Below, piece by piece: positions 10,764 through 50,539 of a DNA stretch of 64,000 nt. Positions within the stretch are counted from its first letter, which is position 1; every line of letters starts with the position of its first letter. The notes under the pieces were generated by a model. It did no database searches and was not told where the DNA came from. It saw only the letters and a program-made list of their open reading frames with translations. The DNA comes from a virus, in IMG/VR virus record IMGVR_UViG_3300046522_000512, positions 1-64,000 of that record; one strand, written 5' to 3'. The position numbers were made by a program, and so were the translations under genes.

Positions 10764-10877
10764 CCCGTGTCTCTCAGTGAGAGACACGGGTGCACGCCGA
10801 CATGATTCGAGCCGTGTCTCTCAGTGAGAGACACGGCTCGGGAAGGCCGTCTGGGTGTGTCTCTCACTGAGAGACAC
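10764..10877. repeat. Three parS-like palindromes upstream of parA
   Basis: Three perfect inverted repeats share the arms GTGTCTCTCA / TGAGAGACAC around one central base: 10764-10790 (13+1+13), 10808-10840 (16+1+16) and 10857-10877 (10+1+10, centre C instead of G). Centres are 47 and 43 bases apart, about four helical turns. Arms outside the common core differ between copies but stay palindromic, as expected for selected protein-binding sites. Together with the two copies after the ParB-like gene they frame the parAB pair, so a centromere and/or autoregulatory operator role is likely. Confidence 0.85.
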
Positions 10878-10976
10878 GACCCTTTCGGTTACAGCCTATG
10901 GGGGTCTGCCACTTGGATAATCGTTTGGCTGGCAGAATGCGAGCGACCTGATCGCCATGCCTGGAAGGGCGACGTC

Positions 10977-25197: not shown

Positions 25198-28100
25198 TCA
25201 CCGAGTGGCGAGCAGTCCCAGAAGGAACGCCCGCAGGTCGTCATCCCTGTACCAGTCGCCCGAGAACATCGTCGCGAGCCCGCGAGCCACGATCTGGTCA
25301 TCGGTGACGTCCTCCGCCCGGCCGCCGAACAGCCGCTCCAGCAGCGCATCCAGCGTGCTGCGCCGGGCCCCGGGCCGTCCGGTGTGGGTCCGGGTGAACC
25401 CGAACACCTCCTGCGCGGCCAGCAGATCCGGGTAAGAGCGCTGAAGGTGAGCCACCAGAGCGTTCACCGCAGTGCCGCGGCCGCCGTCGCCGAGGTCAGC
25501 GACCGTGGCCGTACCGGAGTCGGCGTCGTACGAGCCCGCGTCACCATCGACCGCGGTCACGAACCGTGCCGTGCGGTCCGCGAGCCACTCCCGCGGCACG
25601 TAGCCCGCAGCATCGGCCAGCGCTCGCGCCGCCGCCGGGTCGCTGCTGTGGCTCAGCGTCAGCCGGTTCCTGCCACCGGGGCCCATCTCTCGGACCTGCG
25701 CGAGGGTGTCACGCACCGCGCCGGGCAGCGCGGCCGTGTACGCCTGGTGCAGCCGGTCGGCTTCCTGCCGGGCGTGCTGCGCTTCCACCTGCGCCGCGGC
25801 GATCTCCGGACCGAGGTCCGGGGCGCCCTGGCCGGCCGCCACCGCCCGCAGGTTCCGAACACGGGCCTCCGCCCGGTCCTGGTAGCGGCGGGCGTGCCGC
25901 ACCGTGCCGTGCGGGTCGTCGCCGAGCTCCGGCGCGGCCGCCATCAGCCGTGCCACGACATCGGCGTCCACGTCCGTACCGGCCGCGCGCACCGCGGCGA
26001 GATGCCGCAGGGCGTGCCGCCCGGGTCCGCGGTCCGCAGCCCGGTCCATCGTCCAGCCCGTGCCGTCCTGCACGCCGGGGAGCTGACCCGCGGCGAGCGA
26101 GGAGCGGGTGGCCAGCCGGTACCAGCGACGGCGCCGGGAGACCTGACCGAAGTGGCCCGGGGCGGGCAGCAGCCGCGCCCAGTGCGCCACCTGGTCGGCC
26201 AGCGACATGCCGTCCCCGTGCCGCGGCAGGGAGCGGGCAGCGGCCGCGATACGGCGCAGGCGCCGAGTCTCCGGCCACGATCGCACCCGCCGCACCAGAC
26301 CCTTGCGGAACCGGTTGATGGCCTTGAACGGGTACGCCACCGCGGCGGCGAGACCCTTGAGGAACGCGGCCACCAGCTCCACGACCCGGCGGGCGATCTG
26401 CACGAGCGCCGCCGTGATGCGGGCGAGCATTCCCGGCCGCTCGCCTTCCGGCAGCTGGGCCGCAATGCGCTGCGCTGCACCGTCACGGCTGTCAGCCATG
26501 CGCTGCGCGAGCCGGGCGACGATCGCCGCGCGCCGCTCCGGAGTCAGCAGCCCCGTATCGGCATCCCGGAGCGCCTCGCCCACCGCACCATCGACGTGGC
26601 CCTGCACCTCGTCGTCGACTGGGGAACCCGCACCCGCGTCGGGCTCGGGAGTGGCCTCACCATCGGCGCTGCCGTCCCCGTCGCCCACACCGGTGTCGAG
26701 GTCGGGCTCATCCGACTCCGACCGGTTGCGCAGCGACTCCGGGATCAGCCGCAGCAGGTCCGCAGCACGCGCCGCGGTGTCCTCGGGCGACTCCCCGTCC
26801 AGCGGCTCCAGGTCGTCGAGCGTCTGCACCGCAGCCTGCACCGCGTCGATCCGCGAGCGCATCGCCATCCGCCGCAGCTCGGCGAGCAGCCGCTCCCGCT
26901 CGTCGCCGGTGATACCCGACCCGTCGACCACCGCCTGCGCGTCCCTTTGCACGCGCCGCATCGCCGACCGGAGCGCGCCCGCCGTGACCTTCGCGGCGAT
27001 CTGCTCCCGGAGCTGGTGAATGCTGCCCGGGGTCTGAGTCCCTTCCACCGCGGCGTCGACCACGGCCCGCGCGACCAAGTCGCCGTAATCGGCCGTGAAC
27101 GCCGCCGTGTCCAGGCCCGCGTTCGGGTCCCGAGCTTCGGCGTCATCGTCGGCCGGAACCTGCGGCTCGGGCAGTTGGTACAGCGGGTCACCGGCGGCCA
27201 TGGTCCGCTCGGAACGCTGCCCGTTCCCGTCTTCCACCGTCAGGACCCGCAAGCCGCCCGGGGCGTCCTGGACGTCCGTGACGCGGTACGAGGCCATCTC
27301 GTCGGGGTTCGTCTCGTCCGGCAGGGCGATGGTGTCACCGACACCGACCGAGCCGACCGTGCCCGGCTCCGGCCGCCCCGCCGGCGCGCTGTCCGCATCC
27401 GGGTTCGGGGCGTCGGCCTCGCCGGTCAGGCGGCGCTGGTTCGCGGCGAACCAGGCAGCCGCGGGCCGTTCCCGGTCCATGACGCTCACCGACTCGGCAA
27501 GGGATCCGCCGAGGATCTGGAACGTCCTGGTGGTGGACGGCCTACCGGCCAGGCCTTCGAGCTCGACCGTGACCTGCTTGTCGCCGACGCTGACGGACTG
27601 CACCTTGCGGGTGAACCAGTCGCTGCCGTTGGCGCCGGTGCCGAACACCAGGTGATCGCCCGGCTTCAGCTCGGTCGCCTTCACGATGCGGCGGTCTGCC
27701 TGATCGGCGACCCCACCGCCTTCAAGGGCGCTGTCGTAGGGCAGGGGCCGGAACGGGGCGCGGGCGCCCACGCTGTCACTGATGAACCGGCCGTCAGCGT
27801 TGGCCAGGAGGAGATTGACTGTCTTCCCGTCCTCGCTTCGGATCCCTTCCACGACCAGCAGACGGGAGGGCTCCCCGTTGACCGGCGCCACGATCACATC
27901 ACCGGTACTCAGGTAGCGCGCTTCGGTGGTCATACCGCCGTCGTCGTTGCTCGTCCCGGTCTGCCCGGCCGCCTGGTCGAGGCGGTCAGCGGCCCGCTTG
28001 GCTGCGCGGCCCTCCGCCGTCGATGGGTCGGCGTTCTGGCGAAGGCCTTCAGCTATCGCGGCCGCCTGCTCGGGGGTGACGGGCAGGTCCCGGGCGATCC

Positions 28101-34100: not shown

Positions 34101-37100
34101 CCGGCTCGCCCGGAGGGGGCATGGTCTGCCAACTGTGCCAAGCGCGTGACGCCTGTGCACGGATCTTGTCCGCAAGCCTCTGGAGAACTGCCTGCCGACG
34201 GCGGCCCTCGGGGGTCGACGCGTCCACGCTGTCCGCGGTGGCAGTGGCCTCCTCCGCGAGCCGGTTCATCTGCCGGTAGTTGAGGCCGCCCTGCCCCCAA
34301 TGCTTCGCAGCCTCACTCAGTTCATGGTCAGAGGACTTCGCCCACTCCTTGGCGAGCTTGAAGAACTCCTCACGCTGAGCGTCGCTCAGCTCGCTGTACT
34401 GGACTGTGTCCCTGCCCTCTTCGGGCCGCAGGTGCCGCCAGGCCGTGTCCTTCAGCGCCACTCGCATTCCGTTGTCGCGGCGGTTGCTGTCGACGGCCTG
34501 AGCGGCTTCGCGCGGCCCGTACAGCGGGTCGGAGGCCGACTGCGCCGTCCCGCCGCCGGTCTGGCCACCGCGGGCGTCCTGGCCATGCCACACAGTGCCG
34601 CGGCGGCGGATCCAGCCGACGACGTTGCCGTCCTCGTCGAGAACCTGCCCGTGACCTTCCTCCAAGTCCAGATTGGCCAGACGCGCGCCGTAGAAGAGCC
34701 CCAGGCCCTCGGGGGTCTGCGCCGACTCCAGATCCTGCTGCCGCTTCTCCCCGCGGGCTGCTTCCTGCGCTGTGGGCGCGTTGTGCTCGGCCGTGCGTGC
34801 CTCGCCGGGCATGGACAACTGCCGCGGCTCGTACGTCCGCGGAGCGCCGCCGCCGTCGAGGACAACGACCTTCCCGTCCTCGGCGAGGATGACGCGGCCC
34901 TCACCGTTCGGGGTGACGGCCGTGTCGCCGTTGTGCCACTCGCGGGCGGTAGAGCCCTCCTGGGCCTGTCGGTTCGGCCCGGCGGGCAGCTCAGTCGGGA
35001 GGGTCAGGCCCTGGAGCTTGGCGGATTCCTTCACATCGCGGCGGTGCAGTGCTTCCTCGGCGAGCTGCCGCGACTCCTCGGTCTCGTCCAGAACGACGAG
35101 CTGCCGGGGATCAAGGCCGAGGCCGCCTCCGCCTTGAGTGGCGAGCTGGGCGGTGTAGAGGGTCGTGCGGCCGTCTTCGTCCACCGTCTTGGCCATGACG
35201 AACCGCGAGCCCCACAGCTTGTCGCTCGACGAGCCCTCCCGGATCACATGGCCGGGCTGGATCTCGTTCGGCGGGACCGCCCGGAACCCATCGGGGAGGG
35301 TGTCTGCCCACGCCGGTCTCGGGAGGGCAGAACCGTCGTCCTTACGCACCGCGATGAAGTGGTCGGCGTACCAGTTTGGGTCCGCCCGGAACTCGTGGCC
35401 GGCGTCGTCGCGCAGGATTGGATTGCCGCGGGTGTTCACGACCCGGGCGGTGACGGTCTCGCCGTCGTCGTTGCGGTAGTCGACGTAGTAGCCGACCTGA
35501 TAGCGGATGTCGAAGCGTCGCCGGTACGCCTCCTTGTCGGCCGCAGTGGCATCCGGGCCGGGCGGAACCTGGTCTCCCGTGATGATGCCAGTGGCAGGGT
35601 CGGGCGCAGCCGGGCTGCCGGTGTTCGCCTCCTTGCGGGGCTCGGTCGTCTCCGGGCTCGGCTGGTCGTTCTTCAGTGCGGCGAGTTCGTCACGGACCTT
35701 TCCGGCGTCGAGCTTTGCCGGGGCGCCGCCGCTGGCCTCCGGGTAGCGGCCCTCAGCCACGGCCTGGTTCAGCTCGTCCTCGGACGCGACCGGCAGTTGC
35801 GGCCGGTCCTGCCCGTTCCGGCGCTGGACCTGCGCGGTGCCGATGTACTGCTCGCGCTGCTGCCCGTCCACGTCGTAGCGGGCGATGAGCCCGGGGCCGT
35901 CGAGGCGGGCGACCTCCCCGACCTGCGGGGTGCCGTCTTCCTCCTGGAAGTTGATGCGGTCGCCCGGCTTGAAGTCGTCGAGGACCCAGTCCCGCCGGTA
36001 CTCGCCGGTCGGCGGCTGCGTCGGGTCGCCGTCGTTGACAGCCTCGAACACCCAGCCCAGGGAACCGGCGTCGAGGACGTCGGTCGCCCGGGTCACCGCC
36101 ACGTAGGCGACGCGCAGGTCTTCGTCTTCGGGGACGGTGTCCCACTTGATGTGGCCGTTGTCGTCGTACTCGGGGCCGCGGAAGTCGTCCGCGATCCGCA
36201 CCTTCTCGGACTCCAGGCCCTTGGACTTGTGGGCCGTCGTCACGAGCAGATCGTGCGGCTTCTTCTCGTCGACCAGGCGGCCGCCGCCGGTGTCCTCCTG
36301 CGGGTAGAGCTTCGCCAGATGGGCGTCGATCTTCGCCTTCGCGTCTTCCAGCGACAGCTTGTTGTCGACCTGGTAGTTGATCGTCCTTCCGTTCTTGGTG
36401 AAGGACTCGGTGCGCTTGCCGGGCTCGTAGTAGTAGCGGCGGGACTCGCGGTCGTACAGCAGCTTGCCGACGCCGTTGGTCTTGGCGTCACCGAGCCACC
36501 GCTTGAGCTGGTCGACCTTCGGGTCGTTCCAGTCGAGCGTGACCCACACGCGGCCGCCGACGTTCTCCGTGTCCGCGGCCTGCGCCCCGGACTCCATCAG
36601 CTTGTCGATCTCGTCGGGGTGTTTGTCCAGCAGCGCGAACAGGCTCTTCAGTTGCTGGAGCTCCGGGTCGGAGTTGACCTCGTCGAGGATGTCCTCGTAC
36701 GACTTGCCGTTGAAGCGGGCGAGCTCGGCGTGGCTGGTGCGCTCCCCGTTGGCGAGCGCACGGGCGGCCGTCACGAACTCCTGCAAGTCCTTCACGCCGC
36801 CGGACACGGCGATCGTGCGGCCGGCGGCGAGCGCCTCCACCGCGGCGAGCGCGACACCGGCGTTCGTGCGGGCGATGACCATCGTCTCGTCGCCCGGCTT
36901 GATGTTGCCCAGGCGCGAGTCCTTGCGGTCGAAGCCCTTCAGCCGCATCCGCGTGCCCAGCAGGCGCAGGAACCTGTTGCCGACGTTCGCGACGGCCGGG
37001 CCGAACCGGAACGACTGGGTGAGCGTGGCGCGGGCGTCGACCGGGAGCTTGCTGAGCGCGTCGGAGGCGCCGCGGAAGCCGTATATGGCCTGGTTGGAGT

Positions 37101-40100: not shown

Positions 40101-43100
40101 TGACCGTTTCGCCGCTGTTCTGGCCGCTGGGTGTCGAGGACTGTTCGGCGGCGGCGCGGGCGGCGCGGTTCTTCTCGCGGCGCTGCTGCTCACGCTCCAG
40201 CCCGGCGTGGCGGACCACGTCCTTGTCGCTGGCCTCGCCCTTCGCGATCCGCTCGGCGAGGGTGTCGGTCTCCTCCTTCAGGTCGGCATTGTTCATACCG
40301 AGGGCGTCCGGCTGCGCCGGGGCGGCCTGCGCACTGGACGACGTCCGCGCCAGGAACGCCTCACGCTTCGCGGCGAGCTTCTTCGCCCGCGCCGCGTCCC
40401 GGGCCTCGGTGGTGGGCCATATCCACTTCACGCGGCCCTTGTCGTCCTGCGAGATGGCAGGCGGGGCCGGTGTCTTGGGGACCAGGTTCACATCCCGCGC
40501 GGCGACCTGCGCAAGGACGTCTTCCTGGTCGTTGGACATGGCGCGCAGTTCGGCGTCCAAGGCGGCGATCTGCTTGTTGCGCTTGGCGGTGTCCTCCTCG
40601 GTCACCGTGGGCTGCGCCTTCAGCCGCATAATCTCGTTGAGGAGGTCCAGTTGCCGGGTGGACTCCTCGAACACGGTGGCGAGTTCGAACGGCTTCCCGA
40701 TCCGGCCGGCTGCCTGCTCGGCGGCCCGCTTCTTGTCCGCGCGCCGGTGTTCGGCGCGCTTGATCCGCTCGTCGATGTTGGCGATCGAGTTCTCGATGCG
40801 GGACAGCGGCAGCGTGCGCGGCTTGCCGTCGTGGTCGATGAGCTCGTGGTCCTCGTAGTCCTGCCAGGCGCCCGGGACCTGGGGCAGGTCGACGCGGACC
40901 GTGTTGTACCACTGGTTGCCGATGCTGCGGGTACGGACGAACCGGGCGGTGACTTCCAGGCCGCCAACCCGGCCGATCGGGATACCGGCCGCATTCTCGT
41001 CGTACGGGCGGCGCATGCCGTCCGCGTACACCGCCCGCAGGGCCGTGTTCAGCGCGTTGCGGGCGTCGTCGCGGGCGTCTCCGCCCTCGAAGTCGGTGGT
41101 GCCGATGGTGGCGTTGAAGTCGTCGCCGCGGGTGGGCTTGCGCTTCTCGACAGCCTGCTGGAGCTGCGCGACGTACTGCTTGGTCCACTCCTCGGCCTGC
41201 GCGGAGTCGCGGATGGCCTCCTTGAAGCCCTCCTGGGAGCGCCGGTAGGCGTTGAAGCGGCCCCGCAGCCGGTTCACGAGCGGCTTGAGCTGCGCCTGGG
41301 CGATCAGGTGCGGGTCGCCGGCGGTGAGGGCGCTGACCTCGTCTGCGTCGAAGTTGACGGGGCCGATGTCCTCGACGACGCGCTCGGAGAGCGAGCCGCG
41401 CATGAGGGCCCGGATGAACTTCGCCTTACGGGCGATGGCTTCCCAGAACTTGGCGTCGGTGGACCGCTCGGTGGCGTACTGGAAGATGGCGACTTCGTCG
41501 TTGGCGTTGCCCTGCCGGATGACGCGGCCGTTGCGCTGGTCGACGTCGGCGGGCCGCCACGGGGCGTCCACGTGGTGCAGGGCAACGGCGCGGAGCTGGA
41601 CGTTGGTTCCGGTGCCCATCTTGGCCGTGGACCCGAGCAAGACGGAGATCTTGCCGGAGCGGGCGTCGTTGAACAGGCGGGCCTTGGCCGCGTCGTCCTT
41701 CGCCTCGTGGATGAAACGTATCTGCTCGGCCGGGATGCCCCGGGCGATCAGGAGCGACTTCAGCTCGTCGTACGTGGAGAAGTCGGTGTAGGTCTCCTCG
41801 TCGTCGCGGGACAGCGACTCACTGCCGTCGTCGGTGAGGCTGGCGTCCATCTCGTCGGCGTCGGTGCCGCTGCCGGCCTTCTTCTTCCGCTTCTTGCTGC
41901 GGCCCGGGTCCTTCGGCGTGCCCAGGTCGAGGAAGACGATTTGCAGGCCGCCCGGCGTGTCGTGCGGGGTGGCGTCGGTCTTGCTCGTGGGGAAGACGGC
42001 GTCCTTCGTCTCCCCGTAGATCCGCACGACGTTGTCCGCGACCGTCGGCAGCTTGTTGCCGCCGCCGAGACTGGGGTCGAGAAGGCGCGGGTCGAGCGCG
42101 GCCATGCGGCCGTCGCCGAGGAGCTTGAGGTGGTTGTCCTCCTTCGGATCAACGTTGCCGCCCTCAAGGCGCGCTGCGCGGGCCCGGAGCAGTACCTCGT
42201 ACTCCTCCTGCGCCGGGGACATCGGCATGGTGATCGTGACGGCCTTGCCGCCGACGATGCCCGGCACGGGAAGGTCGAGGTCTTCAGCCGTCTTGACGTC
42301 GGCGAACGAGCGCCACAGCCGCAGCAGCTCGGGCACGTTCTGGAACGCCGCCAGACGCGTCTTCTCCTTGTAGGAGCCGTCAGGGCTGCGCTCGACCGCG
42401 GAGACCATCTGCGCGAACGTGGACGCGAAGTCGTCGAAGTCCAGCATCCCGAGCTCTTCGAGCAGGTCGGGGCGCAGGTAGCGCATCATCGTGTGGACTT
42501 CAGCGATGCTGTTCGCGACGGGGGTGGCCGTCGCGAACGTCACGACACGGCCGGTGTCGGACCGCTTGCGCAGCCACTCCAGCTTCATTTCCAGGTCGGA
42601 GGCCCGGTTGGAACCGTCGATCGCCGCGACCGAGGACGGCGTGTCGAGGTTCTTGTACATGTGGGCTTCGTCGACCACGAGGTAGTCGACGCCCATGTCC
42701 TCGAAGTGCAGGCCCGCAGCGTCTTTGAGGCCGCTGAGCTTCTTGTCCAGCTTCTCCTCAAGGCTCTTGAGGCTGGCCTCCATGCGCTTGACGAGGCGGG
42801 TGTCGTTGCCTTCGCCGTCGGCGTCCTTCTGCCGGAGGATCTTTTCTCGCAGCCGCTCCACGCGGCGGCCGATGTAGTCCTCTTGGATCTCCGGGCGCAT
42901 CTGGATCGACTCGAACGCGGTCTGCGTCAGGATGATCGCGTCGTAGTCACCGGCCGCGGCCCGAGCGATGAACTCGCGGCGGCCCTTGCCCGCCAGGTCT
43001 TCGCTGCTCGCGGTGAGGATCCGGTTGTTCGCAACGGACTCGGGGAAGATCTCCGCGAACTCGTGCCGGAACTGCTCCAGCATGTGCCCGGGGACGACCA

Positions 43101-46100
43101 TCGCGGCCTTCTTCACCAGGCCCAGGCGCCGCAGCTCCATGACGCCCATGGCCATCTCGGCCGTTTTGCCTGCACCGACCTCGTGCGCCAGGAGCACGGA
43201 CGGCTCATTGACCATCCGGGCGACGGCGGCGTGCTGGTGGGGGTGCGGGTCGAACCACTCGACCAGGCCGGGGATGGTGCGGCGCTGCCCGTCGTAGGAG
43301 CGCGGCGCCATCGAGTTGAAGTTGTCGTTGTAGAAGCGCTTGTGCTTCTCGGCGCGGTCGGGGTCGGCCCACAGCCAGTCCGTGAACGCCTCTCGCAGGA
43401 GGGTGGCCTTGGCCTGTGCGTCCTCGGTGGCGTCCTTGTCGTAGACGCTCTTGGCGTTCTCGCCGTGGCCTTCCTTCTTGGTGACGACGATCTTGCGGTT
43501 GGTGAGGATCGCCTCGGCGATCTCCAGAGCGGTGTAGCCCTTCGCGCTCCACGTGTGTGCGGTGCGCTCCGCGATGCTCTTCTTCGCCCCGTCGGGGGCG
43601 TCGACCGCCCACAGGGCGCCGCCCTGCCAAGACACCGTGATCCGCTGGTCGCCGAGGGTCTCGCGGAGGAACTGTTCGACCGGCTCACGGCCGATCCAGG
43701 AAGCGCCCATCGGGGCGGCGATCTCGCCGGTGGACAGATCCGGCGGGACGACCCGCTCAAGGTGCTCGACGTTCAGGTCGTAACGGCTGTCGTCTGCCGC
43801 GGCGCGGCGGGCCTCATCGAGCTTCGTGCGGACGTTCCCCGACAGGTAGTCCGCGGCCGTGACGAGCTCGCCGTCCGGGGCCTGGAACGCCATCGGGTAC
43901 TCGACGCCGGTGTCCGAGTCGACGGAACGAGCCGTCAGCAGTCGCGCGATGGCAGTGTCTGCGTCGGTGCGCATGACGCGGGCGAGGCCGTCGGCGGTCA
44001 GCCGGCCGTCGGTCTCCAGCACGATCGCAAGAGCGTCCTGCGGGTCGTCCGCGTACTTCGCGATCTCCCGGTACGTGCCAAGCCGCTTGCTGAAGATCGG
44101 CGCCTTGGTGGTCTTGCGGGTGGTGTCGTCGAACTCGTCGAGCGGCGTGATGTTCGACATCGTCGGGTCGTTGGTGAACAGGCCACCGCGCGCCGCCTTC
44201 TTGCGGTACGTCTTCTCGACCTTCTCCCCGGTGTCGGGGTCGATGGCGGTGCGCTTGGACCACGTGAACCGGTTGATGGCGCCGAACTTGGAGTGGTAGG
44301 CGTCGTACTGCTTGTTGAGCGCCTCCCGGAGTCGCTCGATCAGGGACTCGTCGGCGTCCTTGCGGTTCTCCTCCGCAAGGAGGGACTGGAACGTGTCGCG
44401 GATCGCGAGGAGCTGCCGGGCCTCGTTCGCCTGCGTCTTGAAGACGGGGAAGGGGTGCACCATGCCGTCGCGGACCTGCGTGAAGGACCCGTCCGGTTCG
44501 GCCTGCACGTGCCCGTCGACCCGGGAGGAGCCGGGCGGCAGAAGCGTGACCTTGCTGCGGCCCTCCGTGTCGGGCTTGTAGGCGAGGCCTGCCGCCTTCG
44601 CCTCCTCGACGGTCCGCTTCAAGGCCCGTTCCAGGTTGGCGATGGTCTTGCCGTCGCCGTCCACGCGCAGCTCGTTGTCCCGGTGCATGCCGTGGCCGAC
44701 CGCGAGCTTGCCGAGGATCTGCTGAGGGTTGTCGTGGAAGTAGCTGTTGTAGAAGACAGGCGGCTCGACCTGATCCGGCGGCGTGCCCGGCTTGGGCGGC
44801 GTCTGCCCGGGAAGGGCGTACGTGGGCAGGGAGTGCACCCACATCGGCGGGTCGTTCTGCGTCCGCTCCGACGGCCGCTTGATCTCACCCTTGCGGTTGC
44901 GGCCCGATGTGAACGACTTGCTCTTGTCGCGGCGCCGGAAGATCAGAAGGTCCGTCATCACCGACGTGCCCGCGGTGCGCTGGTGCGCGCCGGACGGCAG
45001 ACGGATCGCGCCGACCAGCTCGCCCTTCTCCGCCATCTCCATACGGGCGGCCTCGCTGCGCCCGCCATGGCCGTCCATCGTCAGCGACGACGTCACGACC
45101 GCGACCAGGCCGCCACCACGGGTCAAGTCCAGGGACTTGAGGATGAAATGGTTGTGGATCGAGTGGCCACCCTTGTTGTGCACCAGGTCGGGCACCTTGT
45201 ACCGGCCGAATGGCACATTGCCGACCGCCGCATCGAAGGTGCCGTTGGGGGCGCGGGTGTCACCGAACGACTCGTGCCGGACCTCGGCGTGCGGGTAGAG
45301 GGCCTTCGCGATGCCCGCGGTGATCGAGTCGACCTCGACACCGGTCATGTGCGTGCCGTCGGGCGCGTAGCCGATGAAGTTGCCGACGCCGGATCCGGGC
45401 TCCAGCACACTGCCGGCGTCGAACCCGAGGTCGGTCAGGGCCGCCCACATCTGCTGCACGATCTGCGGGTCGGTGTAGTGCGCGTTCAGCGTGTTCGCGC
45501 TCGCGTCGGCCCACTCGGCATCGGACAGCAGCTCACGCAGCCGCTTCGCGAGCGGCTGGAACTGCGCATCCGGCTGCGGCTTGAAGATCTGGGGGACCGC
45601 ACCCCACCCGGAGTACCGGGCGAGTTCCTGCTGCTCGGCCCCGGTCGCGGGACGGTTCTCGTCCTGGAGGCGGCGCAGGATCTCGATGGCGGCGATGTTC
45701 GCCTTGGCCCGGTTGACCGGGCTCGACGGAACGAGAGTCTTCCCGTCGGCAGGGGGCTCGTAGGCCGGAGCAGTGGCCTGCTGCTCCGGCGTACCGAACG
45801 CTACGGGAGCTGAGGCAGCTCCACCCGCGGCATGTCCTTCGTCTCCGTTCCCGGATCCTTCGGCATCCCGTACACCATGTCGTGCAGCACCCGTTCCCGG
45901 GCCCGCATCCGGACCGACTTCAGCTCGCGAGCCCGCGCCACCGCGTCCGTGCCCTCCTGCAGCGGAGGAGCCCACTCCTCCGTCAGTTCCTCGATCTGCT
46001 GCACGATCTCGTCCGACCGCTCCCGGGCGAACTCCTCGAACGCCTTGTCCGTCGGGAACCGATCCACTTCCAGCGGCCGGTACGTCTTCCAGAACGTCCG

Positions 46101-49100
46101 AACGAGATCCACGTACGACACTGTCATTGCTCCTCTTGTGCTGTTCGGACAGGGCCTGTCGAGCGACGCTCACGTTCTCACGCGCCAGGCGCAGGAACTC
46201 GGCCGCATGGGCATGGTTGGCGCCGCCGCGGCCGCGCAGGGCGCGCTGCATTCCGTCGAGGGCGCCTTGGAACTGCTGGATGGCTTCCGACGGCGTGATG
46301 TCACCGCGCTTCAGCGCGTCCACGGCGTCACCGGCAGGCGCCGCCAGGTCGTGCGCGGCGGGCGCTCCACGCAGCTCGGTCAGACTGTTGATGACCGGGC
46401 CGAGCTGCTGCTCCGCCACATCGAGCGCTTCCACGATGTGGTTGCCCGCGGCGGTGGTAGCCGCCATGTCGGCCAGGCTCGGGCCCTGGTCGGCGTTGGG
46501 GGCCGGCTGCGGGGCCGCCTCGGGGGCCGGGGCGGGGGCGTGGTCGGTGTCGTGCTCGCGCACCAGGTCCGCGAGGGCCGCCTCCTCGGTGAGGAACGGC
46601 TTCTTGGAGCTGTAGCGGGTGCCGTGACCGAGCCGGTTCCACGTCCAGCGACCCGCAGAGCCCTGGAGCGTGGCGTCGTCCTGGTTGCCGCCATCGACGG
46701 CGGCGGGGCGGTGGCCCGACTCATTGTGCGCGCCGAGCTGGACGCGGGAGAGCTGCTGTGCGTACGCCTGTCCGTCGCGGCGCTGGGCCTCGGCGAGGAT
46801 CGCCGTCTTCTCAGCCTGGGCGCGGGCCCTCTTCGCCTGGTCGCCGGAGGACAGGGTGTCAGACCAATCCTGGTCGGCCTTCGCAAAGGCGGCGTCGAGG
46901 TCCTCGCGCGACACCTGCGACCAATCCCGCTGCTCGGGCTTCGCCTGCGGGGCGTCGGGGTTCGGGGTGTTGGTGCGGTCGCCCGCGTACGGGGTGCCGT
47001 CGGGGCGGGTGATGTCCTTCAGCGCGTGGGAACGCGTGCCCCGCTCGGCGCGCACGAGCACAGAGCCGGAGTCGCGGTTTACGGCCATGACCGAGCCGAC
47101 ACCGTCAGGCGAGTTGACCTCGTCGCCGTTGTTGGGGAAGTCGCCTTCCGGCGTGGCCTGCGGGGCGCTCGGCGCGGCCGCGGCCGGGGTAGCCGCAGGG
47201 GCCGGGGCGGGCTTGTTCTGCTGCTCCTGCCGCTTGCGGTACTCGTTCGCGGCGTGGGACTCCGGGGCGCCGTGGGCGATGTCCCACTGGCCCCGCTGGT
47301 CGTCCATCTGGTTGCCGAAGGCCCGGCTCCACACCCCGACCCGGTGCCGCTCGCGGGGGCCCAGCTTCGGATCCCACCAGTCGACTTCCTGGTCCGGGTT
47401 GGACGACTCGCGCACCCCGCGGCCGACCTGCATGGCGAACTGGCTGGCATCCTCCCAGGACTTGAAGCCCTGCCCTGCGCCGCCGGACCAGCCGAGGGCT
47501 CTGCCGTCGTAGGCGCGGTGCACATCGAACCGGTGGGGGCCGCGCTGGACGATCGCGAAGCCGAAGTGGTTGGCCATGGTGACGTTCCACTTGGGGTTGC
47601 CCGCCATGGCGCGCACCCCATCGCTGTACACGCGATCCAGGCCCGGGGCGCCGCCGTTCTTCCAGTACTCGCGCAGCTCACCGGTGTTGCCGGGCTTACG
47701 GAAGCCGACCTTGTCGTCGCCGTTGTTGCCGCTCGGTCCGACGTGGCCGACGGCGATGTTCTGCCGGGGGATGCCAGAGGTGTCGGCGATGGACTGCGCG
47801 GCCTGCACGAGCGGGTTCGGCCGCTCGGTCGGGGCCGCGGGAGCCGCGGGAACGGCCGGGGCCGGGGCCGGCGGGAGGACGGCGGGGGTCGCGGGAGCGG
47901 GCGTGTTCCTCGCGGCCGCGCCCTCACGCTTCTTCGCGGCCTTGTCCGCGAATACCTTCTTCGCCTCCACGCTGGCCTGGCGCACCATCTCCTGGCCCTC
48001 GGGAGACTCCAGGCGCTGGTGATAGCCGGGGCTGTCCCAGTCGAACGGCTTGTCGCCGAGCTGGGCGGCCTCCAGGCGGTTCGCGAAGTCGACGGCTTCG
48101 CCCTTGCGCTCCGACATGGCCAGGCGGACGCCGCTGCCGGAGACGATGACCGCGTATCCGGTCTTGCGCTGGCCGTTCTTCTCCACGGTCATCTTGGCGA
48201 TGACGAACCGGCCGCCGCGGGAGAGCTGCGGCCTGTCGAGCTTGGCGAACAGTGCGGCGGTTTCCCGCTGGTGCCGCTCCTGCTGGGCCTTGTCCTGCGT
48301 GTACGGCTCCAGATTGCCCTTCCGCCAGTAGGCCTGAAGCTCGTCGAGGTTCTTGAAGAGTTTGCCGCCCAGGGCGCTGGCCGGTCTGGCTGCCTGCGGC
48401 CGCATGGGCATGCTCGTGTTGCCTTCACCCGGGGGCAGGCCTCCGCGAGAGCCGGGGCCCTTCTGGGGGCCGTCGGAGCGCCAGGCCCGGGGAACGAGCG
48501 GCTGACTCTTCGGGCGGTTCTTCCTCGGCGCGGGGATCGGCTCGTTGCCGTGACTGGTGAAGCGCTCGTGAGCGAGGCGCAGCGCGTCACGCAGGTTGGC
48601 GGCGTACCGGGCAACCTCGTCCTGGCCGTCGTTGTGGGCGATCTCCGACAGCTGGTTGGCCTCGTCCGCGAGCCAAGACAGGCGTTCCACGTCGTCCGGG
48701 TTGAGCTGGTCGTTCTTGTCGTCCCGGACGTCGAATCCGGTACCGGCGTCGGCCAGGCTGTCGTACAGCTCGTCGGCTTTGGCGTTGTGCCAGTTCGCCG
48801 GCCAGACGCCTTCCAGGTCCCCGAAGTACTCCTCACTCAAGTCGCGCACGGCGCGCCGGGCGTGGCTGGTGTCCCAGAACTGGTGGAAGTGGTCGTCTAC
48901 CGGGGGGCCGGCGGCGCGCAGCGCATCACCGTTGCCCATGACGTGCCGCTCGTGGGGGGTGTCGTCCGCGTTCCTGTCGATGGGCAGCAGGTCGGGGAAG
49001 CTCGGCATGGCGACGTTGCCGCGCCGCCGGGGCGGCAGAGGGTCGCCGTCGTTGTCGTGGATGTTCGTCATGACGCGGCCCTGCGGGACGAGCGGCTGAT

Positions 49101-49647
49101 CGTCGTCGTGGTTCGGGTCATCGGGGCCGGCGCCGAGATCCTGGCCCTCGATGTCCTGGCCGATCGGCTTGCCCTGGTCGTCGCGCTCGTGGACGGTGTC
49201 CGGGGTCTGGCCGTTGTCACCGCGGTCGTTGGCGGGGTGGTCGGCGCCCTCGGCTGTGTCGTCCTTCGCCGGGTCGTGCGGGCCGTGGCCAAGCCCGCGG
49301 TTCTCATCGCCGTAGCGCCGCTCGTCCTCGTCGCGGACCTTGGACTTGCTCTTGGTCGGCGCGGAGCCGTCCGGGCGGCTGACCATGGTCAAGCGGGCGG
49401 CGTTGATGCGGGAACGCTGGTGGGTGGCCAGGTTCTCCACGAGGACGTCGCGGCCACCGAGCGCGCGCAGGACGCGGGCCATGCCGCCGCCCCACATGCG
49501 GGCGATACCGCCCGTTTCCACGAACCTGCCCTTGGAGTCACGGGGGTGCAGATCCGGGTTCCACGTGCGGCGCAGCCTCTTGGTTTCGAGGCTGGCGAGG
49601 ATGCGGTCTACGGCGGTGGTGATCGGCATGCGGCGGACCATGCACAC
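25198..49647 (-). CDS. Giant polyvalent-type protein: DNA methyltransferase, SF2 helicase, UvrD-like helicase, many GD-type beta modules
   Basis: One uninterrupted frame of 8,149 codons. Domains in order: N-terminal WNPDLHPRDSKGRFVETGG (about 27-45); methyltransferase with VLEPGSGVGNF (about 1,413) and GNVPFGRY (about 1,476); SF2/SNF2-like helicase with Walker A HEVGAGKT (about 2,155), VDEAH (about 2,323) and QRNGRVIRQG (about 2,703); UvrD-like helicase with AGTGKSS (about 3,958), DEAQDV (about 4,153), GDSNQAIYGFRG (about 4,180), AHKSKGLE (about 4,470) and YVAVTRA (about 4,515); then about 3,500 residues of repeated GDxVR...REGYV small beta modules joined by Pro/Ala linkers; a hydrophobic helical patch (about 7,740-7,785); and a last about 90 residues like a degenerate phage metallopeptidase end. 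The MTase-helicase resembles P1 DarB, an injected antirestriction protein. It lies between portal and protease genes, a typical place for packaged polyvalent proteins. Start: GTG 49647, or ATG 49629, which gives the 26-base leader seen at three other genes. Confidence 0.9.
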   Translation of the reverse strand: MCMVRRMPITTAVDRILASLETKRLRRTWNPDLHPRDSKGRFVETGGIARMWGGGMARVLRALGGRDVLVENLATHQRSRINAARLTMVSRPDGSAPTKSKSKVRDEDERRYGDENRGLGHGPHDPAKDDTAEGADHPANDRGDNGQTPDTVHERDDQGKPIGQDIEGQDLGAGPDDPNHDDDQPLVPQGRVMTNIHDNDGDPLPPRRRGNVAMPSFPDLLPIDRNADDTPHERHVMGNGDALRAAGPPVDDHFHQFWDTSHARRAVRDLSEEYFGDLEGVWPANWHNAKADELYDSLADAGTGFDVRDDKNDQLNPDDVERLSWLADEANQLSEIAHNDGQDEVARYAANLRDALRLAHERFTSHGNEPIPAPRKNRPKSQPLVPRAWRSDGPQKGPGSRGGLPPGEGNTSMPMRPQAARPASALGGKLFKNLDELQAYWRKGNLEPYTQDKAQQERHQRETAALFAKLDRPQLSRGGRFVIAKMTVEKNGQRKTGYAVIVSGSGVRLAMSERKGEAVDFANRLEAAQLGDKPFDWDSPGYHQRLESPEGQEMVRQASVEAKKVFADKAAKKREGAAARNTPAPATPAVLPPAPAPAVPAAPAAPTERPNPLVQAAQSIADTSGIPRQNIAVGHVGPSGNNGDDKVGFRKPGNTGELREYWKNGGAPGLDRVYSDGVRAMAGNPKWNVTMANHFGFAIVQRGPHRFDVHRAYDGRALGWSGGAGQGFKSWEDASQFAMQVGRGVRESSNPDQEVDWWDPKLGPRERHRVGVWSRAFGNQMDDQRGQWDIAHGAPESHAANEYRKRQEQQNKPAPAPAATPAAAAPSAPQATPEGDFPNNGDEVNSPDGVGSVMAVNRDSGSVLVRAERGTRSHALKDITRPDGTPYAGDRTNTPNPDAPQAKPEQRDWSQVSREDLDAAFAKADQDWSDTLSSGDQAKRARAQAEKTAILAEAQRRDGQAYAQQLSRVQLGAHNESGHRPAAVDGGNQDDATLQGSAGRWTWNRLGHGTRYSSKKPFLTEEAALADLVREHDTDHAPAPAPEAAPQPAPNADQGPSLADMAATTAAGNHIVEALDVAEQQLGPVINSLTELRGAPAAHDLAAPAGDAVDALKRGDITPSEAIQQFQGALDGMQRALRGRGGANHAHAAEFLRLARENVSVARQALSEQHKRSNDSVVRGSRSDVLEDVPAAGSGSVPDGQGVRGVRPGAVGRDRAADRGTDGGVGSSAAGGHGRGGAGSRAEVGPDAGPGTGAARHGVRDAEGSGNGDEGHAAGGAASAPVAFGTPEQQATAPAYEPPADGKTLVPSSPVNRAKANIAAIEILRRLQDENRPATGAEQQELARYSGWGAVPQIFKPQPDAQFQPLAKRLRELLSDAEWADASANTLNAHYTDPQIVQQMWAALTDLGFDAGSVLEPGSGVGNFIGYAPDGTHMTGVEVDSITAGIAKALYPHAEVRHESFGDTRAPNGTFDAAVGNVPFGRYKVPDLVHNKGGHSIHNHFILKSLDLTRGGGLVAVVTSSLTMDGHGGRSEAARMEMAEKGELVGAIRLPSGAHQRTAGTSVMTDLLIFRRRDKSKSFTSGRNRKGEIKRPSERTQNDPPMWVHSLPTYALPGQTPPKPGTPPDQVEPPVFYNSYFHDNPQQILGKLAVGHGMHRDNELRVDGDGKTIANLERALKRTVEEAKAAGLAYKPDTEGRSKVTLLPPGSSRVDGHVQAEPDGSFTQVRDGMVHPFPVFKTQANEARQLLAIRDTFQSLLAEENRKDADESLIERLREALNKQYDAYHSKFGAINRFTWSKRTAIDPDTGEKVEKTYRKKAARGGLFTNDPTMSNITPLDEFDDTTRKTTKAPIFSKRLGTYREIAKYADDPQDALAIVLETDGRLTADGLARVMRTDADTAIARLLTARSVDSDTGVEYPMAFQAPDGELVTAADYLSGNVRTKLDEARRAAADDSRYDLNVEHLERVVPPDLSTGEIAAPMGASWIGREPVEQFLRETLGDQRITVSWQGGALWAVDAPDGAKKSIAERTAHTWSAKGYTALEIAEAILTNRKIVVTKKEGHGENAKSVYDKDATEDAQAKATLLREAFTDWLWADPDRAEKHKRFYNDNFNSMAPRSYDGQRRTIPGLVEWFDPHPHQHAAVARMVNEPSVLLAHEVGAGKTAEMAMGVMELRRLGLVKKAAMVVPGHMLEQFRHEFAEIFPESVANNRILTASSEDLAGKGRREFIARAAAGDYDAIILTQTAFESIQMRPEIQEDYIGRRVERLREKILRQKDADGEGNDTRLVKRMEASLKSLEEKLDKKLSGLKDAAGLHFEDMGVDYLVVDEAHMYKNLDTPSSVAAIDGSNRASDLEMKLEWLRKRSDTGRVVTFATATPVANSIAEVHTMMRYLRPDLLEELGMLDFDDFASTFAQMVSAVERSPDGSYKEKTRLAAFQNVPELLRLWRSFADVKTAEDLDLPVPGIVGGKAVTITMPMSPAQEEYEVLLRARAARLEGGNVDPKEDNHLKLLGDGRMAALDPRLLDPSLGGGNKLPTVADNVVRIYGETKDAVFPTSKTDATPHDTPGGLQIVFLDLGTPKDPGRSKKRKKKAGSGTDADEMDASLTDDGSESLSRDDEETYTDFSTYDELKSLLIARGIPAEQIRFIHEAKDDAAKARLFNDARSGKISVLLGSTAKMGTGTNVQLRAVALHHVDAPWRPADVDQRNGRVIRQGNANDEVAIFQYATERSTDAKFWEAIARKAKFIRALMRGSLSERVVEDIGPVNFDADEVSALTAGDPHLIAQAQLKPLVNRLRGRFNAYRRSQEGFKEAIRDSAQAEEWTKQYVAQLQQAVEKRKPTRGDDFNATIGTTDFEGGDARDDARNALNTALRAVYADGMRRPYDENAAGIPIGRVGGLEVTARFVRTRSIGNQWYNTVRVDLPQVPGAWQDYEDHELIDHDGKPRTLPLSRIENSIANIDERIKRAEHRRADKKRAAEQAAGRIGKPFELATVFEESTRQLDLLNEIMRLKAQPTVTEEDTAKRNKQIAALDAELRAMSNDQEDVLAQVAARDVNLVPKTPAPPAISQDDKGRVKWIWPTTEARDAARAKKLAAKREAFLARTSSSAQAAPAQPDALGMNNADLKEETDTLAERIAKGEASDKDVVRHAGLEREQQRREKNRAARAAAEQSSTPSGQNSGETVTLDPQKVRADLAEISPAADRTGAEPEGQDAPKETPASQPEAEPSLTTAQARALESALNSGLGPDGQQIEAHPNVIRRLLRLGYADERSKPRVGGGSIKYYVMTPEGERRARALRDEREQARTARLAALDAADEAPQERNSQTPQASGTPGTGPQPPSPRPAPQAPAAPRPAPKPADTVRPFANEREWRAGITGVEGAQGQVTSAAETTWGRDMPAPARSLRDNVFQAIAAQESGDTEDTAASLAGAREDAQRLRNRLTDTDRQGMEAPLDNFMRVTDDYLARHAVTVEKRRREDAQRDRIEREAQEQFRRSLTGTPAPAPETPAKGSDAPSTGRAWQDGDFQPGDTVAFSNRNAMNMQQSGEFVRSANQDTAVLRGRNGAEREVPYIDIMGRTRDGVFEENPPAAGTPTTPLPQPTPSADDGKQFESGDKVHYWYDESGPAQRKLGTVVETTDDGVVVDGPAGDRETIPFNRVTKAPERQRSADAPQPAPASSDLPMSALFAKNKATSRHALDSLKAGYQEQFGDEPRDRVGQLSNELFTFLDQQWGEAAGGVFGPASETALHLADALHDQEMTPEERSGRFGAQVADVQRELRHRRDVIARQQGAPDSAGKAPRPSAPSDARPVPATPPADMDGDQIGEEIDTLDEQIAPLQDATDSVDLAYRLRLEQRRFELEEEERRRWSPTPEYGEDGKVIPRKRGDVIRDRLAGYGLNDAETTGLVHRVEDLPAAKAGGYSDEEWARIDTAAAANEAYPPTEEQGIIIEGAARRGLNMAVMALAGTGKSSTLKMLSHRMPGKKIVYLAFNRSVANEAREAQARGEYAKNLTASTANGYAAKVADKRLNNRLPNHKAGGFKKLSAQQIADRMRWYDTVKAGDRDLAPGGAATVAELMIKTWAKSSDAEMGPQHITGAKTAQEARDLFDAVKPLADRMWANLSDPTKGDAGQDLPMDFDYIVKMWAVGGFKIDADTLYWDEAQDVNPVMEGVVRAAIDQGVQVVAVGDSNQAIYGFRGASDALSKLPVDARATLTQSFRFGPAVANVGNRFLRLLGTRMRLKGFDRKDSRLGNIKPGDETMVIARTNAGVALAAVEALAAGRTIAVSGGVKDLQEFVTAARALANGERTSHAELARFNGKSYEDILDEVNSDPELQQLKSLFALLDKHPDEIDKLMESGAQAADTENVGGRVWVTLDWNDPKVDQLKRWLGDAKTNGVGKLLYDRESRRYYYEPGKRTESFTKNGRTINYQVDNKLSLEDAKAKIDAHLAKLYPQEDTGGGRLVDEKKPHDLLVTTAHKSKGLESEKVRIADDFRGPEYDDNGHIKWDTVPEDEDLRVAYVAVTRATDVLDAGSLGWVFEAVNDGDPTQPPTGEYRRDWVLDDFKPGDRINFQEEDGTPQVGEVARLDGPGLIARYDVDGQQREQYIGTAQVQRRNGQDRPQLPVASEDELNQAVAEGRYPEASGGAPAKLDAGKVRDELAALKNDQPSPETTEPRKEANTGSPAAPDPATGIITGDQVPPGPDATAADKEAYRRRFDIRYQVGYYVDYRNDDGETVTARVVNTRGNPILRDDAGHEFRADPNWYADHFIAVRKDDGSALPRPAWADTLPDGFRAVPPNEIQPGHVIREGSSSDKLWGSRFVMAKTVDEDGRTTLYTAQLATQGGGGLGLDPRQLVVLDETEESRQLAEEALHRRDVKESAKLQGLTLPTELPAGPNRQAQEGSTAREWHNGDTAVTPNGEGRVILAEDGKVVVLDGGGAPRTYEPRQLSMPGEARTAEHNAPTAQEAARGEKRQQDLESAQTPEGLGLFYGARLANLDLEEGHGQVLDEDGNVVGWIRRRGTVWHGQDARGGQTGGGTAQSASDPLYGPREAAQAVDSNRRDNGMRVALKDTAWRHLRPEEGRDTVQYSELSDAQREEFFKLAKEWAKSSDHELSEAAKHWGQGGLNYRQMNRLAEEATATADSVDASTPEGRRRQAVLQRLADKIRAQASRAWHSWQTMPPPGEPDVPRDVDAPDWVPYGHRETSKTDAPVKLDAAQVRTELADLNGSDSSPAADGDPGKASPEPEADGETIDADQARINDYVRVEVSDTLDRTRVHEGYLLANPRKGKGHRPRHGDFDAWILYIGNGPNQSPGRGNQVDIPADQKIQRLPAPEAPALGPVDIDSVKPGQYIRATVPDADGNEVTREGYVVSAAARRDGPRRDDPVMSWQVHIADTPHAVHAWDDVIEVPAGHEVERMSPPGPVPELEIPDVPGLDLSEYTRPDQKEVDEYRKWAGVWANPAPDGPRNALLDRVKNMPGPASRPLSPKAAPRWIGDAGDAFPLDQFDENTRHLLAQYDGDQRDFLAGHAASMREATQRLAGEFRAASREIMIPRIATRSGMKDAAEKLGALWAGDSERSRQVVLDQIAAAVADADRHGLTEQQVKDFLVGVAGGDDPEQRANGLTGAFPEVGRSLSSASDDVKAYYAGFHAWRGQNDDQSFSGYHHYNNRRSALGGEYLPVADPRTGDGQFIVGEAELPDGMRWTRLQNLKPGDLYRPARGYYAKDNRFDGLDAAHVVVNLHADGKEGRPRTTSLSTGSHTEHPGDWVVHLTAPEPALRKKANAKLRDKWVKKENEDDARKWEAAQAISRRPDGEAADVASLQEGERLRVRGSNEFIGGIYVAEGDLLEPPERAQMWRGGSQVDGWRLLLSTHGHAGDHIYVADGESDEWAERLSRDTNAPETGASGTNAPETGESQTNEPGTDEPKPDESGDGEPKPDESENNDDRDRRRRRRNQLGNGAPNGGGGGLPGGLGMGLPNFPDSSTPSTGSGRGRGDGSGRTPAGTGQADNANPAAGLPDEFAALRQRYDGDMVPASEIQVGDWVHIVGADQMYNEPKHLVGRVLHTRQFNGGVRIEVESRDPLKGGDAVQRESAALYDGELAERLPEGNPGREDTSDLKRRMETWEERASASRVPVPEGWQAVDGSRIQPRIGDRFRIVARQDGKRTQHMNVVVERSNDWQGDGYWKVKNQARRFHPSDIVAIPEGADVQYRTDVPEPAESTPQRPERTPSVPDISDEPRAEIVNPNEPQRGDRVRVETQNTAGSKVTREGFLLAPARSVTATRDGERLKAWRLHLSDNPDAKPNVRNGVTILADDKVARLPDTDAPAAGGADVPREGGATPVGGQDGASSSNAPSAGGSDAPGAGDGQGAAPTGDAPAPTSQYGINAAHGEGRRAGTVDGRRIPTHDELRQYQTGENGIISEEGERALFGSPERIQELAAQGFTPSPKLVSDHGREEVWRNGRLIGSVRAPHTTGFYMTPPEERWEGEMPLGNHYHNGTFSTRDAAIAHLVLRDMEQGEPDLSIVHPDIAWDFRGSNLSLGFPPEEEGLRGLESLNDNPADMERYRKIRALADALGRGETISGNVADDLDHLHDELRWLDATHYKYQPADLKHKHILGPGWLADEIRDYLDVLRPEDPRAMHHEISKARASKQFLDDLVDEGGKDRAESVPVTDLRAGDIVDLDGRITNRYPGATTRRTGYVVGEPRPASITINKKRQKAVRIHVASSVVGAHQLAGDTFVIPVGDNAQRLMSADDVNLPVEEYRYGRQVGEAPEVAPQRATSSGDNTPAPAEERPAAAPNTPAPAPAPVPAEERPAPAKETPAPAPAKETPAPAPAKETPAPAPAEDRPAPAAKTPAPAKERPAPAEETPKPSADKAEPERPAVPEPVHGRPAEWVKVSDIRQGDVVRIDGITKGGTARTLAGYVMDGPTEVPTVRARRVQDMVRVLIAETPDGSTKRESVWVKPDATAARATREIGDEATTVQTGADSDVLTGRVADRVATDGGGNGLFPGSVVTDDDGREGVVVGANSAGVRVQFGDDRTDDAHEPSTLNVIDGGAARPSGWTTDGHRVNVGNWVSDRDGNMLGTVEELDGDTATVATTEGMKPMPVTDLRVIGDTDNNGQDGTPAAQRRKEPITSREPAPTVEPVTGPTVDPELAPEERDAVADRGTAPGDAPEAQQGAARIARDLPVTPEQAAAIAEGLRQNADPSTAEGRAAKRAADRLDQAAGQTGTSNDDGGMTTEARYLSTGDVIVAPVNGEPSRLLVVEGIRSEDGKTVNLLLANADGRFISDSVGARAPFRPLPYDSALEGGGVADQADRRIVKATELKPGDHLVFGTGANGSDWFTRKVQSVSVGDKQVTVELEGLAGRPSTTRTFQILGGSLAESVSVMDRERPAAAWFAANQRRLTGEADAPNPDADSAPAGRPEPGTVGSVGVGDTIALPDETNPDEMASYRVTDVQDAPGGLRVLTVEDGNGQRSERTMAAGDPLYQLPEPQVPADDDAEARDPNAGLDTAAFTADYGDLVARAVVDAAVEGTQTPGSIHQLREQIAAKVTAGALRSAMRRVQRDAQAVVDGSGITGDERERLLAELRRMAMRSRIDAVQAAVQTLDDLEPLDGESPEDTAARAADLLRLIPESLRNRSESDEPDLDTGVGDGDGSADGEATPEPDAGAGSPVDDEVQGHVDGAVGEALRDADTGLLTPERRAAIVARLAQRMADSRDGAAQRIAAQLPEGERPGMLARITAALVQIARRVVELVAAFLKGLAAAVAYPFKAINRFRKGLVRRVRSWPETRRLRRIAAAARSLPRHGDGMSLADQVAHWARLLPAPGHFGQVSRRRRWYRLATRSSLAAGQLPGVQDGTGWTMDRAADRGPGRHALRHLAAVRAAGTDVDADVVARLMAAAPELGDDPHGTVRHARRYQDRAEARVRNLRAVAAGQGAPDLGPEIAAAQVEAQHARQEADRLHQAYTAALPGAVRDTLAQVREMGPGGRNRLTLSHSSDPAAARALADAAGYVPREWLADRTARFVTAVDGDAGSYDADSGTATVADLGDGGRGTAVNALVAHLQRSYPDLLAAQEVFGFTRTHTGRPGARRSTLDALLERLFGGRAEDVTDDQIVARGLATMFSGDWYRDDDLRAFLLGLLATR
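29135..29215 (-). repeat. 27-bp tandem repeat in a Pro/Ala linker of the giant gene
   Basis: Units begin at 29135, 29162 and 29189 and encode PAPAPAKET-like nonapeptides; a diverged copy precedes them near 29111. The period keeps the frame. It is part of a Pro/Ala/Glu-rich flexible linker between two GD-type modules. Confidence 0.8.
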
Positions 49648-49916: not shown

Positions 49917-50539
49917 GACGTCGTCTCCATTGCTGAGGAGGGCAGGGGGCGGGGGCCGGTGCCGTCGTACGGGGCGGCGAGACCGGCATTGATCAGGGCG
50001 CGATTGAGCTCGTGGCCGTAGGGGGTCGCGATGGTGGCGAGGTAGCGGCCGTACTTCTCGCGGCGCTCGGTGTCGACGGTGAACGCGGGCCCGTGCGCGG
50101 CGACCCACTCGCGGACCCAGTCGGCGGCGTGCTTCCCGGCGTCGGTGTTCTTCTCGGCGGTGTTGATGCCGAGGAGCCGGACGCGTTCGAAGGCGCGGAG
50201 CTCGAACCCGAGGTCGATGGCGAGGTCGAGGGTGTCTCCGTCGATGACGCGGGTGATGCTCGCGCTGTAGGTGTGCGGGGCCGGGGCGTCGGTCAGGGTC
50301 GCGAGGTAGCGGCCCTTGGTGTCGCGGGTGGTCTGGACGGTGAGCGGCCCGCCGCTGGCCTTCAGGTGTGCGCGGGCCCACGCGGCGGCCTTCTTCGGGT
50401 CGTCGGTGGTCGTGTCCGCGGTCGCCACGGCGGTCAGGCGGACGCGTTGGGCCAGGTGCAGGTCGAACCCGAGGTCGATGTCGAGGTCGAGGGCGCCCGC
50501 GCGGCCGATGCTGAGGAGGGTGGTGCGGTAGGTGTGCAT
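49913..50539 (-). CDS. Duplicated staphylococcal-nuclease-like protein
   Basis: A 208-residue protein from ATG 50539 (TGATG overlap with the portal stop). The C-terminal half (about 100-205) is a canonical SNase domain: ITRVIDGDTLDLAIDLGFELRAFERVRLLGINTAE and REKYGRYLATI, with the metal-binding Asp, the two Arg and the catalytic Glu. The N-terminal half (about 1-92) is a diverged copy (SIGRAGALDLDIDLGFDLHLAQRVRLTAVATAD...TKGRYLATL) that lost DGDT and TAE, so it is probably inactive. An internal duplication is evident. It is a possible host DNA-degrading or virion nuclease. Confidence 0.85.
   Translation of the reverse strand: MHTYRTTLLSIGRAGALDLDIDLGFDLHLAQRVRLTAVATADTTTDDPKKAAAWARAHLKASGGPLTVQTTRDTKGRYLATLTDAPAPHTYSASITRVIDGDTLDLAIDLGFELRAFERVRLLGINTAEKNTDAGKHAADWVREWVAAHGPAFTVDTERREKYGRYLATIATPYGHELNRALINAGLAAPYDGTGPRPLPSSAMETTS

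Follow-up and report, generated by a model that had tools for sequence, protein, structure and literature searches.

A single giant gene in the head operon of a Streptomyces-type phage or phage-plasmid very probably encodes two proteins: a polyvalent anti-restriction protein built on a constant chassis, and a small TnpV-like protein read out of frame from the same DNA. The stretch analysed here (hereafter the window), in which the gene lies, comprises positions 1 to 64,000 of a virus record of 84,790 bases. Both frames, their conservation, their phase and the selection on them can be read from the sequence, as can a predicted ribosome-binding site belonging to the nested gene. From these we infer a conserved anti-restriction module that yields two proteins from one DNA, its translation, packaging and function being the parts supplied by inference. 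The nested gene is a new element, overlooked in an earlier sequence-only reading of this DNA.

The giant frame and its cassettes

The features of the giant gene and its neighbours are as follows.

50539..52998, minus strand: portal protein with a C-terminal Mu-F-like domain, upstream of the giant (PF04860, 2.3e-39)
25198..49647, minus strand: giant polyvalent ORF, one uninterrupted frame; 8,143-8,149 aa according to which start codon is used
49153..49647, minus strand: conserved N-terminal chassis, residues ~1-165, with ETKRxRRxWNPDLHPRDSKGRFIETGG; common to eight of eight giants
45478..45720, minus strand: LPD36-like domain with a GXG(G/A/S) motif, YSGWGA at residue ~1342-1350
44848..45486, minus strand: N6-adenine methylase domain with motifs HYTDP, VLEPGSG and NVPFG
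41509..43239, minus strand: SWI2/SNF2 SF2 helicase, residues ~2137-2713 (SNF2, PF00176, 5.9e-8; PF04851, 1.1e-6; Helicase_C, PF00271, 1.6e-6)
36076..37788, minus strand: UvrD-type SF1 helicase, residues ~3954-4524 (UvrD N, PF00580, 2.4e-12; UvrD_C, PF13361, 2.2e-5)
25201..28983, minus strand: conserved C-terminal block, residues ~6889-8149; small beta units, then a helical region ending DWYRDDDLRAFLLGLLATR
21141..23123, minus strand: prohead protease fused to a 2'-5' RNA ligase-like domain, downstream of the giant (Peptidase_S78, 4.2e-13)
19670..20974, minus strand: major capsid protein, after the prohead protease (PF05065, 3e-29)

The single open frame of 8,149 codons described earlier, for which no strand had been given, is present on the minus strand with no internal stop, where about 146 would be expected over its length by composition alone. 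GC3 is ~0.9 along nearly the whole frame and coding composition follows it almost throughout, the exception being residues ~1172-1281. Its length is given as a range because the start is uncertain among three codons (GTG at 49647, ATG at 49641 and ATG at 49629). The possibility that several genes had been fused by assembly was rejected, since the same gene recurs as a single open frame, with both helicases, in five other IMG/VR records from other assemblies (7,058-8,178 aa; lengths of 8,178, 7,243, 7,699 and 7,058 aa, two of the five being near-identical to each other).

Pfam matches of the neighbours bear out the placement of the giant between portal and prohead protease genes; as a multidomain protein of more than 2,000 aa encoded among late head genes, it conforms to the description of a phage polyvalent protein. 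The RNA ligase-like part of the prohead protease gene (21141-23123, minus strand) matches PF13563 at 2e-11, and in Streptomyces zaomyceticus the gene preceding the capsid gene is annotated as a NUDIX domain instead of a ligase-like fusion.

The chassis was compared in an alignment of eight giants from the window's phage/phage-plasmid group, in which the cassettes between the constant N- and C-terminus vary. Both helicases are found in the window and in four relatives (G001, G003, G004 and G008); the dyad of LPD36-methylase and SWI2/SNF2 helicase occurs without UvrD in Streptomyces NBC_00536 and G005, and UvrD without the dyad in a circular 125-kb plasmid of S. zaomyceticus that carries portal and capsid genes. 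The giant gene lies between portal and capsid genes in every annotated case. A chassis with exchangeable cassettes is the principle of polyvalent proteins set out by Iyer et al. (2017; PMC5512222), and the N-terminal chassis is a candidate capsid-targeting region.

Other observations concern the carrier itself. A gene for a ParA-type ATPase (PF13614, 2.6e-17) and the gene next to it lie on the plus strand at window positions 10824-12745, amid minus-strand tail genes; the ATPase gene is compatible with a phage-plasmid lifestyle. A tail-fibre-like gene at window positions 1-605 (minus strand) holds 240-base direct repeats that are 92% alike, with sub-repeats of 30 and 90 bases. In the NBC_00536 phage-plasmid, queD/queE/folE-like genes adjoin the head operon (L025:5458-8122), which suggests that a pathway for deazaguanine modification of DNA or tRNA accompanies the anti-restriction gene.

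All of the methyltransferase, SF2 and UvrD motifs reported from the sequence alone were located by motif search and Pfam, and the description as a DarB-like polyvalent protein is supported by the GWGA motif of LPD36, a TP motif, the methylase and the SWI2/SNF2 helicase. The LPD36 domain, with its GXG(G/A/S) motif as defined by Iyer et al. (2017; PMC5512222), lies N-terminal to the methylase, whose motifs (HYTDP at 1388, VLEPGSG at 1414 and GNVPFG at 1476) are those of a gamma-class N6-adenine enzyme with a TP and an NPP(Y/F)-type motif, NVPF being a variant with V for the first P; the match to the Eco57I-type profile, at 0.0014, was below the cut-off. The SWI2/SNF2 helicase is fused C-terminally to the methylase, with PF00176 and PF00271 above their cut-offs and SF2 motifs VGAGKT in the 2155 region, DEAH in the 2325 region and QRNGRVIRQG at 2704. 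The dyad is ~34% identical to phage DarB-like proteins over 99% of its 1,501 aa; at least 80% of it was matched by 54 phage records, and the window's copy was matched by 2,138 plasmid records and 114 phage records. The second helicase is of the UvrD/PcrA SF1 type (ALAGTGKS at 3959, DEAQD at 4154, QAIYGFRG at 4184 and YVAVTRA at 4515), with PF00580 above its cut-off and PF13361, at 24.5 bits, just under a cut-off of 25.6. As for the thousands of residues of small beta modules proposed earlier, two small all-beta units (aa ~7064-7114 and ~7433-7490) were modelled at a pLDDT of ~80, but the model of the C-terminal 1,200 aa as a whole was poor apart from these (mean pLDDT 49).

The giant shares with P1 DarB and DarB-like proteins (PMC5512222) the LPD36 GXGU motif, TP and NPPF-like motifs, an SNF2 helicase and a head-gene context. 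It differs from P1 DarB in its size (8,149 versus 2,255 aa), its long modular N- and C-terminal parts and the added UvrD helicase. The earlier reading had taken the two complete helicases to be the unusual feature. The combination is rare, but it has been described: a UvrD-type SF1 and a SWI2/SNF2 helicase likewise occur together in the polyvalent protein OJH72069.1 (12,242 aa), which Iyer et al. (2017; PMC5512222) describe from a Streptomyces viridifaciens plasmid and place in a conjugative context, whereas the giant of the window lies in a phage head operon. Since Iyer et al. report the same combination, the central surprise of the earlier reading was already known. It is unlikely, though the least unlikely of the alternatives weighed here, that the locus is best understood as a packaged anti-restriction protein notable for two helicases, with the nested gene incidental. 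Such an account is favoured by the complete motif sets of both dyad and UvrD and by the likelihood, judged from relatives, that the protein is packaged; but the pairing of UvrD with SNF2 was described in 2017 and, because cassettes come and go between relatives, the two helicases are one combination among several.

A TnpV-like gene nested in the giant frame

Codon scoring along the giant frame showed that it loses coding signal over residues ~1172-1281, where the +1 frame gains it. Two features lie there.

46130..46136, minus strand: Shine-Dalgarno sequence, lying 2 nt ahead of the nested ATG (AGAGGAG-CA-ATG)
45801..46127, minus strand: nested TnpV-like gene, 108 aa, +1 relative to the giant and overlapping giant residues ~1174-1282

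In the overlap the giant frame encodes a low-complexity linker rich in G, A, R, D and S. Relatives encode the nested protein at 94, 74, 70, 36 and ~30% identity, always in the same phase and 17-101 nt before the dyad, and the giant frame is open through the nested gene every time. AlphaFold2, with 22 homologues, predicted a confident all-helical fold (pLDDT 93.5, pTM 0.84); a search of PDB and BFVD with this model returned no match with E<=0.001, and neither NCBIfam nor PHROGs yielded an informative match to the protein of the window (phrog_24764, of unknown function, at 0.0039). The window's copy scored 15.8 bits against the Pfam TnpV profile PF14198, below the cut-off of 27, and for this reason is called TnpV-like.

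The family assignment comes from other copies. A nested 113-aa ORF of Enterococcus plasmid pGTC3 scored 50 bits against PF14198 (E 3.5e-13), above the same cut-off, and the copies in Kocuria and Sinomonas are annotated as TnpV. A ~99% identical 113-aa Enterococcus sequence is annotated "TnpV protein" in NZ_CP098745 and lies inside a "SNF2-related protein" in KY303941 and AP018540. TnpV, named from Tn4451, is known in the literature as a transposon gene; a role in excision has been postulated for it because it reportedly resembles lambda Xis (PMC3158075). That literature does not describe TnpV as lying within a methylase-helicase gene, and an excision role leaves such nesting unexplained. Literature searches turned up no report of a gene nested within a DarB-like gene.

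The homologues of the nested gene that were found sit just upstream of the dyad or under the dyad CDS. They occur in genomes and plasmids of Streptomyces and other actinobacteria; in DarB-like giants of phages of Ochrobactrum, Agrobacterium, Sinorhizobium, Vibrio, Erwinia, Klebsiella, Pseudomonas and Microcystis; in Bcep22-like Burkholderia phages and 31 further IMG/VR contigs; and in Firmicute plasmids of Enterococcus, Virgibacillus and Carnobacterium. The position and phase of this predicted hidden gene are the same across many phages and plasmids, drawn from actinobacteria, proteobacteria, cyanobacteria and Firmicutes, at least four bacterial phyla in all. The phase had not been pre-selected in two of the sets of loci and was constant in both. 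Within one actinobacterial set the dyad-adjacent copy always has the same phase, and only extra upstream copies differ: three loci have a tandem second TnpV-like copy upstream of the nested one (L071:888-1773, L072:903-1773 and L080:1043-1779), in other frames and with no overlap with the giant frame.

Plasmid loci with a short N-terminus have later annotated starts, but these are nested too, because a giant-frame start with a Shine-Dalgarno sequence lies upstream of the small gene in 17 of 17. The seemingly stand-alone TnpV genes of NBC_01213, NBC_01006, Kocuria and others are, by the same token of giant-frame Shine-Dalgarno starts upstream, probably nested. The nested gene was looked for and found absent in P1 darB, L016, L098 and the Hydrogenophaga locus L103, so it is not essential to every dyad. 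In Thermobifida pTH1 (L027:9959-10662) a TnpV-like gene is followed by a short remnant of a dyad start beside conjugation genes, apparently a decayed copy.

A small gene lying wholly within a larger one in another frame is also known from Rz1 inside Rz. What differs here is that the outer gene codes for a giant anti-restriction protein and that the pair occurs in phages, phage-plasmids and conjugative plasmids belonging to several phyla.

Selection on the overlapping frames

Selection was assessed in 82 distinct loci by permuting synonymous codons inside the small genes, with protein and codon usage fixed, to obtain the expected number of giant-frame stops; the third frame served as control. 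The giant frame was open through the small gene in 80 loci, against 35.4 expected, and contained 9 stops, all in two loci (L076 and L078), against 86.3 expected; the control frame contained 364 stops against 338 expected. Because the loci share ancestry, p-values from these counts overstate independence and the probabilities are indicative; with loci clustered at <40% identity, 12 of 13 were open against 3.6 expected. The phase was constant in all 82 loci, the spacer from the small stop codon to the dyad having 36 different lengths that all keep one phase. An SD-like core preceded 63 of 74 tested nested starts, compared with 13% of control start codons. Within the overlap the nested frame gave pN/pS values of 0.39-0.79 and the giant frame 1.17-1.39; on either flank the giant frame of the window's own group gave 0.13-0.98, and in this group its third-position changes are depleted within the overlap. 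These results show purifying selection on the nested frame and a giant frame that is relaxed but kept open, the pattern of a conserved overlapping gene pair.

On the most obvious account TnpV and the dyad would be ordinary separate genes, the giant frame going untranslated across TnpV and the parts up- and downstream of it being distinct proteins. NCBI annotation places the helicase start after TnpV in several plasmids, and two loci are closed in the giant frame. Such a division, in which the giant would be two genes parted by a small one, was dropped as very improbable because the giant frame is open in all close relatives and in 80 of the 82 loci: stops are avoided in the giant frame only and not in the control, all spacers hold phase, and gp69 of Burkholderia phage JC1, annotated as one CDS through the overlap, was detected in virions by 51 peptides.

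Slightly less credible still is the converse, that only the giant is made and the +1 ORF is a by-product of giant codons in a G+C-rich genome. Shadow ORFs are indeed abundant in the window; however, coding signal and constraint within the overlap sit in the +1 frame, the nested family is homologous across phyla and also at other base composition, with one bona fide TnpV among its copies, Shine-Dalgarno sequences are enriched at its starts, and stand-alone TnpV genes exist in annotations.

A programmed frameshift can be set aside as scarcely plausible. On that account giant-frame ribosomes would slip into the frame of TnpV and terminate there, so that an N-terminal half ending in TnpV is made alongside the complete giant. 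Its one instance is orf33 (2,185 aa) of Sinorhizobium phage PBC5, which ends in the TnpV frame; the homology changes frame at ~6950, some 40 nt ahead of where TnpV starts. The record is an old one in which a single indel would suffice, and all other giants read through a TnpV that has its own Shine-Dalgarno sequence and start. The PBC5 switch is either a sequencing error or a natural frameshift; at this locus (L136:6850-7303) orf33 matches phrog_938 and the methylase is left as a separate ORF.

Packaging, proposed mechanism and significance

Packaging of the window's giant into the head is plausible by analogy. DarB is a head protein of P1 with an N-terminal capsid-targeting signal (PMC9024508), and 51 unique peptides of the 4,515-aa DarB-like gp69 of the Bcep22-like phage JC1 were recovered from purified virions (PMC9144972). 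JC1 gp69 carries the same dyad as the window's giant, with a nested +1 TnpV-like ORF at the same position (L099:2067-2474). It differs in its N-terminal parts, UvrD is not reported in it, and some relatives are annotated as transglycosylase. A nested TnpV-like gene also sets the giant apart from P1 darB, in which none was seen.

The reading we favour, two proteins from one stretch of DNA, suggests the following mechanism. The carrier would be a Streptomyces-type phage or phage-plasmid with a giant polyvalent anti-restriction gene in its head operon, the giant having a constant N- and C-terminus and, as its cassettes here, the LPD36-methylase-SWI2/SNF2 dyad and the UvrD helicase. Packed into the head, the giant would enter the cell with the DNA, move along the entering DNA and methylate it or shield it against restriction; the UvrD part may act on single-stranded or damaged entering DNA. 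At the internal Shine-Dalgarno sequence in the disordered linker just before LPD36, ribosomes would start in the +1 frame and make a helical TnpV-like protein of ~108 aa, with other ribosomes reading the giant frame straight through the overlap. TnpV may then work with the dyad in the producing cell, as a subunit, a chaperone or a restraint of the methylase-translocase. That TnpV is a partner of the dyad is our guess, prompted by its conserved position before the dyad and its occurrence in non-phage plasmids; the latter argues against a purely packaging role.

A broader proposition seems to us evenly balanced: that the most widespread module for anti-restriction or DNA modification in phages and conjugative elements consists of two proteins written on one DNA segment. 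TnpV would then be a partner dedicated to the LPD36-methylase-SNF2 dyad, and its out-of-frame gene would lie within the dyad gene in many lineages, from four phyla or more. The dyad is among the commonest parts of phages and plasmids and one of the chief ways in which incoming DNA evades restriction. That it holds a conserved hidden gene, missed or arbitrarily named in annotation, means that the dyad module has been studied with one of its components unaccounted for. The nested gene gives TnpV a testable role and explains the odd disordered linker kept in dyad genes. If this broader proposition is true, neither TnpV nor the dyad could be gained or lost alone, and TnpV, so far known only as an obscure transposon gene, would be a dedicated partner of the dyad.
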